The notes below the pieces were generated by a model. It was not told where the DNA came from. It worked only from the letters and a program-made list of their open reading frames with translations, and did not search any database. Both the position numbers and the translations under genes were made by a program. DNA of 64,000 nt. It comes from Fragilariopsis cylindrus CCMP1102. Its lineage: Eukaryota > Bacillariophyta > Bacillariophyceae > Bacillariales > Bacillariaceae. Location of the stretch: positions 466,459 through 530,458 of the forward strand of contig FMBT01000310.1 of NCBI GenBank assembly GCA_900095095.1, written 5' to 3'. The number at the start of each line of letters is the position of its first letter. Position 1 is the stretch's first letter. This document shows, piece by piece, positions 2,711 to 28,628 of this stretch.

Positions 2711-4549
2711 ATGATCTGTTCAATATACAATGAAACCATAATCATAACGCTCCTCCTCCACTTCATTAGCGTCGGGGCACAAAACTATTATCTTGATCGT
2801 TTCAATTATGATATCACAGTCCAACGGAGTGACGGGTTCACAGATTATCAACCAGAGGATTGGGAACAAATTCAATGTGATGAAAAATCTTCATTAGAGT
2901 CATGTTTAGCTTATACTGATAAGTGGGAAACGGGCCGTGATTGGGCTATCAAAACTAACTACTGTCAATGGTGTCCAGAAGGAGGTGATCCCTCTCTGTG
3001 CAATAAAAATCGACATCATCAATCTCCAATCAACCTAGAACGTGTCGTAGGCTATGAACCTGACACACATTATTTAACAAACGAGTGCATCGTGAGTATC
3101 ATTAGGACAATCATGGATGTTTGATTACGTATCAATAATATCATAATGCAAAATAAATGATGCACGACGAACCTATCACGTGCTTGTATCCTTCCAACAA
3201 ACTAACTTCTTATACTTATTTCTCAACAGGACATACATTGGATGAAATATGAAGATTCAGTTTGTTCTTTGGAACAACTAATTGACGCAGACGCATTTAG
3301 TATCGAACGGCATAGTTTGAGGATATCCCAGCCGGTTGCCATTTATGACGACATCAACCAAGACATCGATGGTGTCCCTGATGGTGTACGGCTGCAATGT
3401 CGAGAGAAAGGAATAGGCAGTCGCTTCGGTAGAATTGATTTCTCGAAGGGATTTAGTCAATGGTGGTACTTAAGTCATACTGATATCAAAACTCCATCGG
3501 AGCACACCCAAGATGGGAAACGATACGATGCAGAAATCCAGCTCCATCATTTTTATAGTGTCACAGCCGAGGAAGCTGGTACCAACAACGAGGTCGCGAC
3601 TGTTTCGATCTTCGCTCAGGCCTACGATGATGCAGTCCCATACCCATTCCTTGACAAGGTAATTTGTCAATGGAGACGAAAGGAATATGATGTACGAAAA
3701 GAATGCGGACTAGATCCGGTGCAATCGACGTATCCAGGTTGCTTTCCACTCAAACGAAGTAAACGAAATCTTCGTAATGAACAACAGCAACGATCGATCT
3801 CTTCTCCCACTAATTCCAAAAAGGATATGGACTTCCTAACAGCACAAGATGTCATTCTCTATAACGATCAACATAGAAATAATCCCAATCATACCAACGT
3901 GAAAATTCACATGGATGAAGGTAATTGGGCACCGGTAGAAGAAAAGGATTGGGATACCTGGATCAAGGAACAGTCAAATGAGATGACTGAAAAGGAAGAT
4001 ATATATCATAGAATGAGAAATGAATATCATGGAGGCAATCATACGGAGGAACTGCATCGTGAATTCCGTAAACTTTACCAGTATGAGGAACTAGAATGGT
4101 TCAATTATTGGCCAATGTTAGGAGTTCGGACTGAATATTATTTTCGTTATTCTGGCTCACAGACCATACCTCCGTGTTATGGAAACTTCATCGATATGAG
4201 CCGCGTCGGCACAAATCATTGGAGGGTGATGAAGGATCCCATCCGAATCCATAGTCGTCAACTGCTCGAACTTCAACGATTAAGTGCTGAAAGGATCGCT
4301 CCAATTGGTAGTACCGTTAACGCATGTCAATCTGATACAGCAGCAAAGGTCACAAGAGACCCAATGGATCCTGGTAAGATTGTAGACGTAAACAACGCTC
4401 GACCGCTCATGTCTTGGGCAAAGCCACATTTCAAAACCTTTTGTGAATGTAAAGATTGGGAAAGTAAGTGGCCCGAAGATAGAAATTGGTGTGCCATTGA
4501 AGATATAAACGAACGTTTCTACGATAAGCCTTACAATTACGGCTGGTAA
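2711..4549 (+). CDS. secreted alpha-carbonic-anhydrase-like protein, copy 1 (intact)
   Basis: Exons 2711-3091 and 3230-4549 (GTGAGT donor, CAG acceptor, 138 bp intron, phase 0) encode 566 residues. A signal peptide covers about residues 1-23. Alpha-CA landmarks appear in order: HHQSPINL, a G-S-x-F-G-R segment, the gatekeeper region SEHT, A-E-x-x-L, Y-x-Y-S-G-S-Q-T-I-P-P-C, N-H-W-x-V, and N-x-A-R-P. Relative to human CA II, the positions of His94, His96 and His119 read Trp, Leu and Gln (QWWYLSH and AEIQLHH), so the zinc ligands seem lost while Glu106 and Glu117 remain. A family-specific insert of about 150 residues precedes the YFRYSGS block. A Cys-rich tail (FCECKDW...WC) follows. It is probably a non-catalytic CA-related secreted protein; a relocated metal site is possible. 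Confidence 0.8.
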
Positions 4550-19126: not shown

Positions 19127-21104
19127 CTAAAAGCCATCGCTTTCAAAGTTATACGGCGTCAAGTACAAACGTTCTTCGAGATCCTCTGTCTCACACCAAG
19201 CTTGGTCTTCCGGCCACTTGCTCACCCAATCTTTACATTCACAAAAGGTTGGATCGTGGGCCTCCTCGTCCGTGGACATCAAAGGGCGTGCAACGTTGAC
19301 CCTTCCATCATCTGATACTTTTGCTGCAGTGTCAGGCTGACAGGGCATGACGGGGTCGTCTGGTGGTGCAATGCGATCACGGATCAGACGTTCCAGTTCT
19401 TTTAGTTGTGTCGACTGTATTCGAATGGGATCCTTCAATACACGCCAGTGATTTACCCCTCGCTTGCTTGCCCTGGTGTCGCTCCCGTAACAGGGAGGAA
19501 TCGTTGCCGTTCCTTGGCTACATTGATACATCACATTTCAAGGGGGAATGTAAGACAACGAAGAAAAGCTGTTAGTTCGTGCTGCATATTATCTAACCTT
19601 AGTAAAAAAAAGTCTAAAGAAATTATTAACTTACTATCGGTAGTAGTACTCCGTACGGGCTCCCAACATCGGCCAATAATTGAACCATTCCGTTTCATCT
19701 CCTCGATTAACCTTCGATGAAGATCGTCCGTATGAACGCCGTTGTATTCCTCCTGTAGGAGTTCACGATAAAGACTCTCGTCATCATCCATTTTTTCACT
19801 TTGCTCGGAAATCCAGATATCCCAGTCCTTTTCTTCGGCGGGAGACAAATTCACCTCATCCATATGTATATTCAACAACTGATTGTTATAGGGATCGTCA
19901 CGGTGTAATTCGTTATGGTAAATAGCATCCGCAACAGTCCGAACAGGATGCTTTTTTACTTGTGGAATACCTTCTGTGGAATTGGAATTGAAAATTCTCG
20001 TTTTCAAGTTCCAAACAGGGGGTGTCAACGGAAAACAACCTGGATATGAGAATTCGATTGGATCTAATCCACATTGTTTGCGTGTACTGAACTCCTTTTC
20101 TCGCCACCGGCATATGACTTTATCTAAATAGCGGTAGGGTGGCGCATCGTCGTACGCGTTCATAAATACAGATATAGCAGCCATTTCGTTATCGTAATCT
20201 ATTGAATAAAAATGATACATCTGTATCTCAGCATCATAGCGTTTCCCTTCTTGGGTATGTTCGGATGGAACGTGTAAATCTGTATGACTTAAATACCACC
20301 AATCACTAAAGCCCTTACTAAAATCAATGCGTCCAAATTTTGATCCACGTCCCTTCACCCGACATTCGAGTTTCACTCCATCGGCTACACCATCCGTGTC
20401 GTTGACCATGTCTTTGTATACAGTAATGGGTTGACCGATCCGTAATCCATGCCTTTCGATTGTAAATTGATCTTGTTTTACTAATTCTTCCATAGAACAA
20501 AAACTATCTTCATATTTCATCCAGTGAAGATCCTACATTAAAGTATAATACAAAAAAGAAAAATTGAATGCATATATACCTGAGTAAGTCAGCCAGTCGA
20601 TATATTATTATTAGTATTATAGAGATGACAAGGATAAGGCATAGGCACTAAGCACAAACTTACGATACATTCGTTGGCAACAAATGAAGTGTTCGGATCT
20701 AATCCAACCTCACGCAATAAGTTGATCGGAGATTGATGGTGTCTACCACATTCATCCGATCCAACCGGACACCAACGACAATAGTTATCTGTAACAGTAA
20801 AATTTATACCCTCGTGCCATTTGTGTGGGTATCCCTCACATTGGTCAAGAGATTCTGTAGTTCGTTCATCACATTTTATCTTCCCCCAATCCTTTGGACC
20901 GTAGTCGATAAATCCATCTTCTCGATTGGTAGTTGTTGTGTCGTAATTAAATCTATCCAAGAAATGTGTGCTATTGTTTTTGGCAGAAACGATGCGACTT
21001 GTATGCGAAGAAACGAAGAAGAAGAAGAAGAGTAGGAAAACCTTGACGATCGACGACAACAAGCCGAAGACGGGATTTTTTCCTGTGGTCAACATCGACG
21101 TCAT
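19127..21104 (-). CDS. secreted alpha-carbonic-anhydrase-like protein, copy 2 (one frame break)
   Basis: Exons are 21104-20664, 20532-19635 and 19517-19127, with GTAAGT donors at both introns and TGTAG/ATGTAG acceptors. A signal peptide (hydrophobic run of Leu/Phe) occupies about residues 1-40. The same landmarks as copy 1 are present: HHQSPINL, HWMKYEDS, SEHTQEG, AEIQMYHFY, the long insert, T-I-P-P-C-Y-G, NHWRV and the Cys-rich tail ending PYNF-ESDGF. The zinc-ligand positions read Trp, Leu and Gln again (DWWYLSH, AEIQ), so the loss is shared. The frame shifts by one base between L-I-E-E near 19710 and the conserved W-F-N-Y-W-P-M-L-G block near 19680. It is divergent with copy 3 across 755 bp. 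Confidence 0.75.
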
Positions 21105-25506: not shown

Positions 25507-28500
25507 CTACGATTTTCCGCGTATTCTTGCAAACACGATTAGATCAGTATGATATGGCCACATACAATTTGCTCCGGTGTCCCACCAAGAACCTTGGCCT
25601 TCATACGTAACATTGAATCCAGAAGATTCTAAATTCTTCACTGCTCTATGGAACTCTGTGACACGACGCTCTTTCGTAAATGACCACTCAAACACAAGAT
25701 TTGTGACATCCAGCCAGTTTGAACGATGGGAAGACTCTGGTGATAAAAGAATACCAATCTCTCCTCCTTCTGAATCTATTTTTACAAATGTAATTCCGGG
25801 ACGTAAAGCGCCATTATCTCCGAAAAAAGGAATAGTTTGCACTTGGAAACGAGTCAGAAGTTCATCCTGGTCCTTCGATATCGATTTATCTCCTTTTTTA
25901 TCGACATAGCTGCTGTACTTCTCTAAAGAATGTCTCCACGTGTTTAAGGTTCCGTCGGTTCTATTTCTAGCGCACACAAAGTTCTGTAGACTGGCTTCTC
26001 CATGAGCAACAGCATACTTGTAGATATCAATCGTCTCTCTAGCTTCGTAATCGGACGATATTTCTAAACATTTTAGATTACATTCAAGAAGTTTCAAATT
26101 CTCTACTTCTGGTTCGTATGCAATAATTTTCCTGCAACCAACACTCAACGCATATCTACAAAATACACCAATATGAGCACCAATATCCAAAACAGTATCG
26201 TGTGCTTTCAAAGAAAATCCATTTTCAAACCATGACATTTTAGGTAATTCATACGCACATCCTCCATCTGTGTCAAGTATCTCGTTTATTACCAACGCAT
26301 CTGTTGACTTCTTCCGAAAACTAAGGCGAGGATAAGATGGTAGTGAAAGGGAATGTTTGTCGATCAGTATCATAGCGTTCGAATCTTCGAAGCTCGTATC
26401 TTCCTTAATAGAGGCTGCTAAATCTTCTCTCATTTCTGGAGTAAACCAAATCAATGAAAACTGTTCTCCTTGGAAATGACTTGTAGAATGAATCTGTTTC
26501 CATCCATCGTACTGTAGGGCTTCGTATCGTATATTGTAAGATCTGCCGTCAACATTAAATTCTCCGTCTATATAATCACCAAGACCAACAATAGTCATGG
26601 CGTCATATTTCCCTTCCCCATTCAGAAAGTGCGGAGTAAACTCTACATTTCGATTAACCATACAGTGTGTTGATGCAACTGATCGTTCTGGGTTATCATT
26701 CAAGTAGCACCTTTGATTTAAGGAGCTACGTACACCTTTTGGACAAATGTGTGACTCAAGCTCAAATATAGCTTTGACGAGTTCTGGGAATTGTTTATTG
26801 GTCGTAGGGAGTTTCCCTTTAAACATTCTTGGATTGACAATAGTAAATGATCCGCACTGAAAAAAGTGTCCTTGGAACTTAGATAACACGGTTCTACTTT
26901 TCAAGATTGATAAAAGATTGGGATCGCCTTCTTTAAGCGTTCCACCATGTGATCGGAGTACTCGCGATATTGAATCTGATGTCTTTGGCCACTCTTTATT
27001 TTCCCCGCAAATATCGTGTAGCAGAGATAGGGTCTTGCGATAAGGATTCGGAGCAACCGAAAATGTAAATTCCCTCGTGTTCGAATCATCATCACTTTCG
27101 TGTTCTTCCTTTTTAGGTTGACTTTGCCCTATTATTGACGGATTATCAAGAAGTTTGATTTGTTCGAGTGTTGAAAGTATACGGGGACTCGTATCGTCCC
27201 TTAGCTTGTTGAGCCACTCATCTTCCTTCTCTAGATTTTGTGCCGATTCTTTTAACATTGTAGCCTGCAATGAGCTTAACCACGATGCATTGGAATCATT
27301 TCCATGCTGTGTTTCGAACAGAGATAATCCTTGTCGTGACAGATCGACAAAATGAAATCGAGCTTCGCTAAAGTAAAGTAAACTAGACGGAGCGATAGGA
27401 GTTTCGATGGAAATATTCATATTAGTGGCTAATTGAACGAATTCTTCAGGTAGCCAACCATTTGATATTGCAATTACTGCTGCAACCATACGTCGTACTT
27501 GTTGTTGAAGGAACCCATCTCCTCGAAATTCAGTCACAACATATGCATCATTCTTATTTTTGCTATCGATGATGAAACCATCATAACAAGCTTTGTCCAC
27601 GCTTCGCCATACATTCTCATTGCTAGGACTTGCTATGCCTCCCGATCCTAATAAAGGATCGCAGAAATTATGGAATGGTCGTCTTTCTTTCTTCCAAAAA
27701 TCCCCGAAACGACCAGTCGATGATACAGCAACGACTGACGACGAAATCTTAGTTACGTCACGACTCTCTAGAAGTTTCAATATTTCTTAAATCTAGTGAG
27801 AGACGGTGGTGTAGTCGTGTGTGTTCGACTTTCGTGTGAAGTACTTGTATCATCTTTTGCAGTAGCTTTATCGATAACCCATTCTAAAGTTTCAGTGCTA
27901 TTATCAATCCAATACAGAGGAATCAAATACTGATAACTCCTTTGAGTACAACTTTGTTCGGCGTGGAATTTGGTTGATAGCATAACAGTTTGTATATTGA
28001 GCACTTTCACAAACAACAAAAGTCCGATATTATTCTTTTCGGCAACTGTCACACTGATAACTTCTTGCATGTGACATACAACTCTTTTGAAGTCAATATC
28101 CCGTAGCTGTGGGCCACCAATTTTATAATTTATCCCTATAACATCACCCCACCCACTACACGTGTTCTCTTGCATCAACGAAGGGTGACGTAGCTTAGCA
28201 GCTGTGGCCAAAGAAAAAGTAGTTTCTCCTTCGTCACCTTCCTCTACACTCAATGATGGATATAAATCTCTCAAAGCACGAAAAAAGGTTTCAACGACAA
28301 TCTCTGCTGCTACATCGTTTCCACAACAAGCTGTTGTTGTATCATTATTAAGATTATCAGAAATGTGATACCCAAACTGAATAGCTACTTTCCTTTTTTC
28401 CAATCTAAGAAAATCAATGACACTATTATTGTCGTTGCCATTATTATTTTGTTTAACTTCTGCTGACTTAATAGCGAGATCATAACAGCTTATACTTGAC

Positions 28501-28565
28501 CGAAGATGCCGAAAAACAGCATTTCGCGACTCAAATACTTCGTTGCAATACTTACAACTTGCCAT
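25507..28565 (-). CDS. fusion: zinc finger + TruA-type pseudouridine synthase fold + TET/JBP-like oxygenase fold + FkbM-type methyltransferase
   Basis: From M at 28565 (an upstream M at 28628 is also in frame) comes a C-x2-C...H-type zinc finger (CKYCNEVF). A TruA-like region follows, with F-H-A-E-x-S-x-T-x-R-S-Y-Q-Y in the first half and F-H-N-F-C, F-R-G-D-G-F-L-x-x-x-V-R-R-M-V and P-I-A-P-S-S-L-L in the second. The halves join at 27785, where AAGAAATATTG is one A short; restoring the frame gives the natural helix RFKKILKLLES. The TruA catalytic R-T-D motif is not visible. Next comes G-L-G-D-Y-x-D-G-E-F, the Y-D-G-W block and I-H-S-T-S-H-F-Q-G-E-Q-F-S-L-I-W-F, the strand pattern of TET/JBP oxygenases. 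Last is a methyltransferase with V-L-D-I-G-A-H-I-G-V-F and F-V-K-I-D-S-E-G-G-E. The combined protein is about 1020 residues. RNA or DNA base modification is inferred. Confidence 0.65.
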
Positions 28566-28628
28566 ATCGCTTTTTTGTGTATTTGTTTTCGTTCGGGGGG
28601 CGGATTTGATAACGATAATACGGTACAA

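Follow-up and report, generated by a model that had tools for sequence, protein, structure and literature searches.

A phage-type methyltransferase joined to a TET-like fold in a diatom hints at a base modification by methylation of an added hydroxyl

The closest described systems are the phage TET/JBP oxygenases and their tailoring enzymes (Tet_JBP, PF12851; TAGT, PF20691, Nonlabens phage P12024L). The products of these phage TET/JBP enzymes are tailored by glycosyltransferases, as stated in PMC12730594, which cites Burke et al. 2021. A locus of the diatom Fragilariopsis cylindrus, located within a window of 64,000 nucleotides (the whole stretch of DNA that was analyzed), resembles these systems in that a tailoring enzyme is tied to an oxygenase fold. 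In addition, the paralogues of the gene share the pattern N-x-N...H-x-D...GG...H...R with the phage enzymes. Unlike the phage systems, the window gene has a TruA-like fold and a zinc finger in front of the oxygenase-like domain, the Asp and Arg of the pattern are lost, and the part of the tailoring enzyme is taken by an FkbM methyltransferase, which is fused to the rest. The same two families are found side by side as gp18 and gp19 of Pelagibacter phage HTVC112P, where the methyltransferase is 28.6% identical to that of the window over 91% of the query (tblastn). The phage pair differs in that the genes are separate and overlapping, the oxygenase motif is kept, a ParB-like gene is the neighbor, and no TruA is found beside them. 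No link between FkbM and TET proteins was found in titles or abstracts among the literature matches listed, and an earlier description may exist.

The locus lies on the minus strand at 28565-25507. It runs, in order, from a C2H2-like zinc finger through a TruA/PUS1-like fold and a TET/JBP-like domain to an FkbM methyltransferase. The features are listed below, where L024 and L025 are the two paralogues from the same genome.

28565-27777, minus strand: ORF1, with the zinc finger and the TruA N-half.
28485..28556, minus strand: C2H2-like zinc finger (CKYC...H...C); Pfam zf-C2H2_4, E 0.0067, 17.5 bits, below the cut-off of 27.
27858..28394, minus strand: TruA/PUS1-like N-half, divergent, with estimated borders; 24% identity to L024 (E 2e-16) in an alignment that takes in the zinc finger too.
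28176..28202, minus strand: AAKLRHPSL, the inferred place of the catalytic R-T-D from an alignment by eye, with Leu (28193-28191) at the Asp position.
27777-27786, minus strand: frame break between ORF1 and ORF2, inside a PPSL..K stretch that is unbroken in L024.
27786-25507, minus strand: ORF2, 759 codons, with the TruA C-half, the oxygenase-like region, and the methyltransferase.
27355..27567, minus strand: TruA/PUS1-like C-half; Pfam PF01416 (PseudoU_synth_1), 28.8 bits, cut-off 23.3.
26434..26865, minus strand: TET/JBP-like domain, presumably a double-stranded beta-helix; 48% identical to L025 in the core, and matched to phage TET/JBP by hhalign of a three-sequence profile.
26631-26623, minus strand: H-F-L at the H-x-D iron-ligand site, with the Asp lost; alignment with HVD (L024) and HTD (L025).
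26461..26490, minus strand: distal His kept (26490-26488) and the 2-oxoglutarate-binding Arg replaced by Gln (26463-26461); alignment with the paralogues.
25522..26325, minus strand: FkbM-type methyltransferase, with the SAM motifs VLDIGAHIG, YEPE, and KIDSEGGE kept.

An earlier note on this DNA had placed all of these elements on one minus strand, and this is confirmed by the ORF coordinates, the Pfam and NCBIfam matches, and the kinship with the paralogues. The three folds that it named and their order were also right, by Pfam for the TruA C-half and the FkbM domain and by hhalign with the paralogues for the oxygenase. Elsewhere in the window, carbonic-anhydrase-like reading frames are present at 3206-4549 (+) and 19531-20532 (-), the second of which scores below the Pfam cut-off.

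The genome (818 contigs, 67.9 Mb) was searched for further members of the family, and the window gene, L024, L025, and a near-duplicate copy of the window gene on contig C328 were obtained. L024 is found on the same contig as the window gene, at about C79:458.6-461.5 kb and some 30 kb away, and contains the finger, the TruA-like halves, and the oxygenase in 873 residues after the removal of two introns. L025 (C384, L025:55-2955) has the same domain order with several frame breaks; since its oxygenase motifs are kept despite these breaks, it may be either a damaged gene or a poor assembly. Weak fingers, also below the Pfam cut-off, recur at the N terminus of both paralogues. The FkbM domain was seen with the window gene only, and none was found with L024 or L025. 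The N terminus of L024 (5466 and down, minus strand) opens with a hydrophobic stretch and an AAF motif, which we take to resemble a diatom plastid presequence; the window gene opens at the finger. The two introns of L024 (L024:2651-2911; C79, about 458.65-458.91 kb) are 125 and 123 nt long, are 95% identical, and flank a 13-nt exon. The pair was considered as a genome-wide introner and rejected, as only its two copies were found in the genome, and it is therefore probably a local duplication.

Within the TruA-like part of the window protein, significant matches are confined to the C-half. Besides the Pfam match given above, the C-half was matched by TIGR00071 with an E of 5.6e-6 and 26.2 bits, under the cut-off of 142.85, and by PDB 4nz6 with an E of 0.0039. 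The N-half provided no Pfam match and no significant profile match. Its motif FHAExxCTQRxYxYLxPL resembles a mitochondrial TruA-type enzyme and aligns, at only 1.7 bits, with FNSKNRCDARTYCYLLPTF of PDB 4nz7, a mitochondrial tRNA pseudouridine synthase A that is presumably human PUS1. When L024 and ORF1 were compared with the TruA proteins of the same genome using hhalign, the C-half alone was aligned, with a probability of 7.8. The place of the R-T-D motif was located by eye, without statistical support, in an alignment with L024 (ANMRHQSL), L025 (YYSDRQNAL), and the same-genome R-T-D proteins L001, L002, and L004; a MAFFT run left this spot unaligned. The Asp position in the alignment by eye is Leu in the window copy, Met in L024, and Asp in L025. 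The catalytic Asp thus seems to be lost from the TruA part of the window copy, in line with the absence of an R-T-D motif that had been pointed out earlier. The window copy and L024 would therefore differ from the TruA/PUS1 synthases in lacking this residue at its inferred place, and they differ further in the fusion of the fold to a TET/JBP-like domain.

The oxygenase region of the window protein provided no Pfam hit at E <= 10, and no match was obtained when the Tet_JBP HMM was run across the whole genome. Against Pfam Tet_JBP, the domain of L025 scored 11.4 bits (E 0.19), below the cut-off of 34.9, and the domain of L024 provided no hit. No relatives of the domain were confirmed in viral contigs, genome contigs, or phage records. 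The window sequence, L024, and L025 were combined in a three-row profile and compared using hhalign with phage TET/JBP, which gave a probability of 71.7% and an E of 3.5e-5; none of 200 column shuffles was as good, and the reversed profile gave 0.2%. Against an alignment of 40 TET sequences, chosen greedily so that members were less than 80% alike, the three-row profile gave 88.2% and an E of 3e-6, with none of 100 shuffles as good. Single rows gave 77.3% for L024, 89.0% for L025, and 15.6% for the window sequence; the shuffles cover the three-row profile. The N-x-N, H-x-D, GG, distal His, and Arg positions are paired in the hhalign alignment. The window domain is called TET/JBP-like from its kinship with the paralogues, to which it is 36-48% identical, depending on the stretch. 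Two structure models were too poor for use (mean pLDDT of 34.2 and 38.0), and a fold search with one of them returned no match at E <= 0.001.

The paralogues keep H-x-D...H...R, and the window copy reads H-x-L...H...Q. The sequence GWKQIH...GEQFS of the window copy corresponds to GWKQRH...GERYS in L025 and GWKERH...GERFS in L024. The earlier note had read H-F-L in place of the oxygenase H-x-D, and the HVD and HTD of the paralogues at that site bear this out. It had also proposed that the oxygenase be checked by a profile search, with a failure to match the region counting against its reading. Taken alone, the window sequence does fail in Pfam, but the fold is supported once the paralogues are included and profiles are compared with profiles.

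Among the modules of the window protein, the methyltransferase alone has its full set of expected motifs. It passes both family cut-offs for the FkbM O-methyltransferases, with 38.4 bits against Pfam PF05050 (Methyltransf_21; cut-off 22.7) and 40.7 bits against NCBIfam TIGR01444 (fkbM_fam; cut-off 37.7). Used alone as the query, it provided no confirmed relatives in genome contigs or IMG/VR viral contigs and none in plasmids at E <= 0.1, and its sole match in 50,697 phage records (E <= 0.1) was gp19 of HTVC112P. A profile of gp19-like phage methyltransferases matched the window methyltransferase with 110.8 bits. The gene upstream of and overlapping gp19 (L050:1055-1963) is gp18, which is annotated as DnaJ/SNF2 and is identified by Pfam as Tet_JBP with 103.2 bits.

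When gp19 was included in the query, 50 loci were obtained from IMG/VR, a set that leans toward the kin of gp19 for this reason. A TET reading frame lies immediately upstream on the same strand in 41 of the 50 loci (42 of 51 when the seed is counted). Among the nine loci without one, six have a methyltransferase frame that starts no more than 51 nt from the end of the contig, and three (L094, L095, and L097) lack it. After clustering of this set with the seed, an adjacent TET frame was present in 11 of 15 clusters at 80% identity and in 3 of 6 at 60%. A ParB-like frame, with frames taken from stop to stop, overlaps or abuts the TET frame in 29 of the 30 loci among L050-L092 that have at least 600 nt before it. 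The conserved order of the phage genes is thus ParB-like, TET/JBP, and FkbM, with the frames overlapping or abutting. In the cyanophages MED4-117 and MED4-184, the FkbM gene is followed by a gene named queuine tRNA-ribosyltransferase (L101:4666-5451 and L102:4666-5451, respectively). Both of the latter genes were matched by the TET profile with 41.0 bits, and the one from MED4-117, the only one run against Pfam Tet_JBP, scored 26.8 bits (E 3.5e-6), under the cut-off of 34.9. From these scores, the two genes look like TET/JBP oxygenases.

A wider set was obtained with a looser query, and the best 80 of 135 relatives were analyzed. Of the 80, 48 have a TET reading frame on the same strand no more than 600 nt away. 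When these best 80 of 135 relatives were ordered by similarity to the window sequence, the successive groups of twenty contained 19, 13, 10, and 6 loci with a TET frame, and the linkage therefore becomes rarer as similarity to the window sequence falls (Mann-Whitney p of 9e-6, with near-copies included). Clustering of the same 80 left an adjacent TET frame in 10 of 30 clusters at 60% identity and in 4 of 22 at 45%. The TET frames from eight of ten listed loci were sent to Pfam (the short frames of L171 and L221 were left out), and all eight matched Tet_JBP, seven of them over the cut-off. No fused TET-FkbM frame was found in the best 80 of 135 relatives. The idea of the earlier note that an oxygenase and a methyltransferase act in two steps gains support from these phage gene neighborhoods.

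The reading that we favor, with a confidence a little short of even, is that a dead TruA-TET scaffold positions the FkbM O-methyltransferase at a hydroxyl that an active paralogue has made. The basic form of the family would consist of the zinc finger, the TruA/PUS1-like fold, and the TET/JBP-like oxygenase, and the window locus would be a derived member of it. In this member, key residues are lost from the oxygenase center and, it seems, from the pseudouridine-synthase center, and a phage-type FkbM domain of the kind that accompanies TET genes would have been joined at the C terminus. The finger, the TruA fold, and the dead oxygenase fold would recognize a nucleic-acid target and keep hold of it. 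A paralogue that is active and has H-x-D...H...R (L024, perhaps L025) would hydroxylate a methyl group on a base, and the FkbM domain would then O-methylate the new hydroxyl. The two steps are modeled on the phage methyltransferase relatives that lie beside TET genes, by analogy with the TET-associated glycosyltransferase in Nonlabens phage P12024L. We infer the nucleic-acid substrate, the division of labor between the paralogues, and O-methylation as the reaction.

The frame break at 27777-27786 could be the sign of a dead gene and is counted against this reading. A gene in decay would be a pseudogene on its way out, marked by a break of recent origin and by the loss of catalytic residues. 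The break is identical on contig C328, two active sites are altered, and L025 likewise has several frame breaks. The two contigs are not independent witnesses of the break, since they match by 99.9% over 7 kb, and a single break can arise from an assembly error or from an unrecognized intron. Eleven GT-AG pairs in the stretch scanned could bridge the frames of ORF1 and ORF2, and none is backed by other evidence; an intron seems less likely because several of these pairs would partly or wholly remove the PPSL..K stretch kept in the paralogue. ORF2 runs through its 759 codons without an inner stop, whereas the remaining five frames there hold 21 to 59 stops, and the SAM motifs are kept, both of which argue against decay. 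A pseudogene is on this balance unlikely.

It was also considered that the fused methyltransferase acts on a glycan or a small molecule with the upstream modules as passengers or otherwise employed. FkbM proteins are mostly known as O-methyltransferases of sugars or small molecules. Synechococcus phage DSL-LC02, one of seven records that match gp19, has an FkbM gene beside a mannosyltransferase and a tail fiber gene, with no annotated TET gene in the 8.5 kb seen, and this FkbM gene scores 79.5 bits against the gp19-type profile. Its relatives served as a control set of 37 loci. Four of these have a weak frame matching the TET profile (18.7-19.4 bits), which lies about 2.4 kb away from the query match. 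Sixteen control FkbM frames also matched the gp19-type profile, and the 12 of them that were listed scored 72.5-153.2 bits, a range that includes the score of the window methyltransferase, and a score against this profile alone is therefore no marker of TET linkage.

Trees of the methyltransferases bear on the favored reading and on this alternative. In a tree of 32 rows, the window methyltransferase falls within a starred set of 13 (99/95) that comprises itself, 11 TET-linked rows, and L089, the contig of which starts 51 nt before its methyltransferase frame; a twelfth TET-linked row, L099, lies outside this set. After rows L147, L094, L097, L043, and L044 were dropped, no starred set of up to half of the 27 remaining rows holds the window methyltransferase. 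With these 27 rows, joining it to the DSL-LC02-type FkbM rows gave a p-AU of 0.056, and this grouping is not rejected. Against a glycan or a small molecule, the highest identity of the window methyltransferase (39-40%) is to the TET-linked row L072 in both trees, and the five nearest rows listed are all TET-linked, so that within the FkbM family it is nearest to the TET-neighboring phage members among the rows compared. The four other FkbM loci of the same genome that were compared, from a total of 23 others, score 14-26 bits, and the fusion partner is itself TET/JBP-like. A substrate of this kind is considered to be quite improbable.

A real functional break would yield two proteins, one with the finger and the TruA N-half and the other with the TruA C-half, the TET fold, and the methyltransferase. 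The break is present in both contigs, as this explanation would have it; it also cuts a stretch that is unbroken in L024 and halves the TruA fold, and two separate proteins are very doubtful. Two genes seem a less likely cause of the break than an assembly error, a recent mutation, or an intron. The proposal in the earlier note that all three modules are active and that one chain builds a hypermodified base in sequence is not supported and is scarcely credible. All three folds are supported, but two of the three modules lack key catalytic residues: in the TruA part the Asp, as judged by eye, and in the oxygenase both the iron-ligand Asp and the 2-oxoglutarate-binding Arg. The paralogues keep the oxygenase set.

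The dead scaffold that delivers an FkbM O-methyltransferase to the product of an active paralogue is the preferred explanation of the locus. A phage-type methyltransferase joined to a TET-like fold hints that a base is first given a hydroxyl, which is then methylated. It is conceivable, and on the whole rather unlikely, that phages and the diatom share an undescribed modification with two steps: a TET/JBP enzyme would add a hydroxyl to a methylated base, and an FkbM enzyme would O-methylate that hydroxyl to give a methoxymethyl-type base. The diatom would then have split the steps between TruA-TET paralogues, with the methyltransferase carried by the copy with the dead oxygenase. A methyltransferase that keeps company with TET/JBP genes across many viral contigs, and that is joined to a TET/JBP-like fold in a eukaryote, points to a tailoring step that differs from glycosylation. 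For the diatom family, the fusion of TruA and TET folds suggests a way in which an RNA-binding fold may guide an oxygenase.
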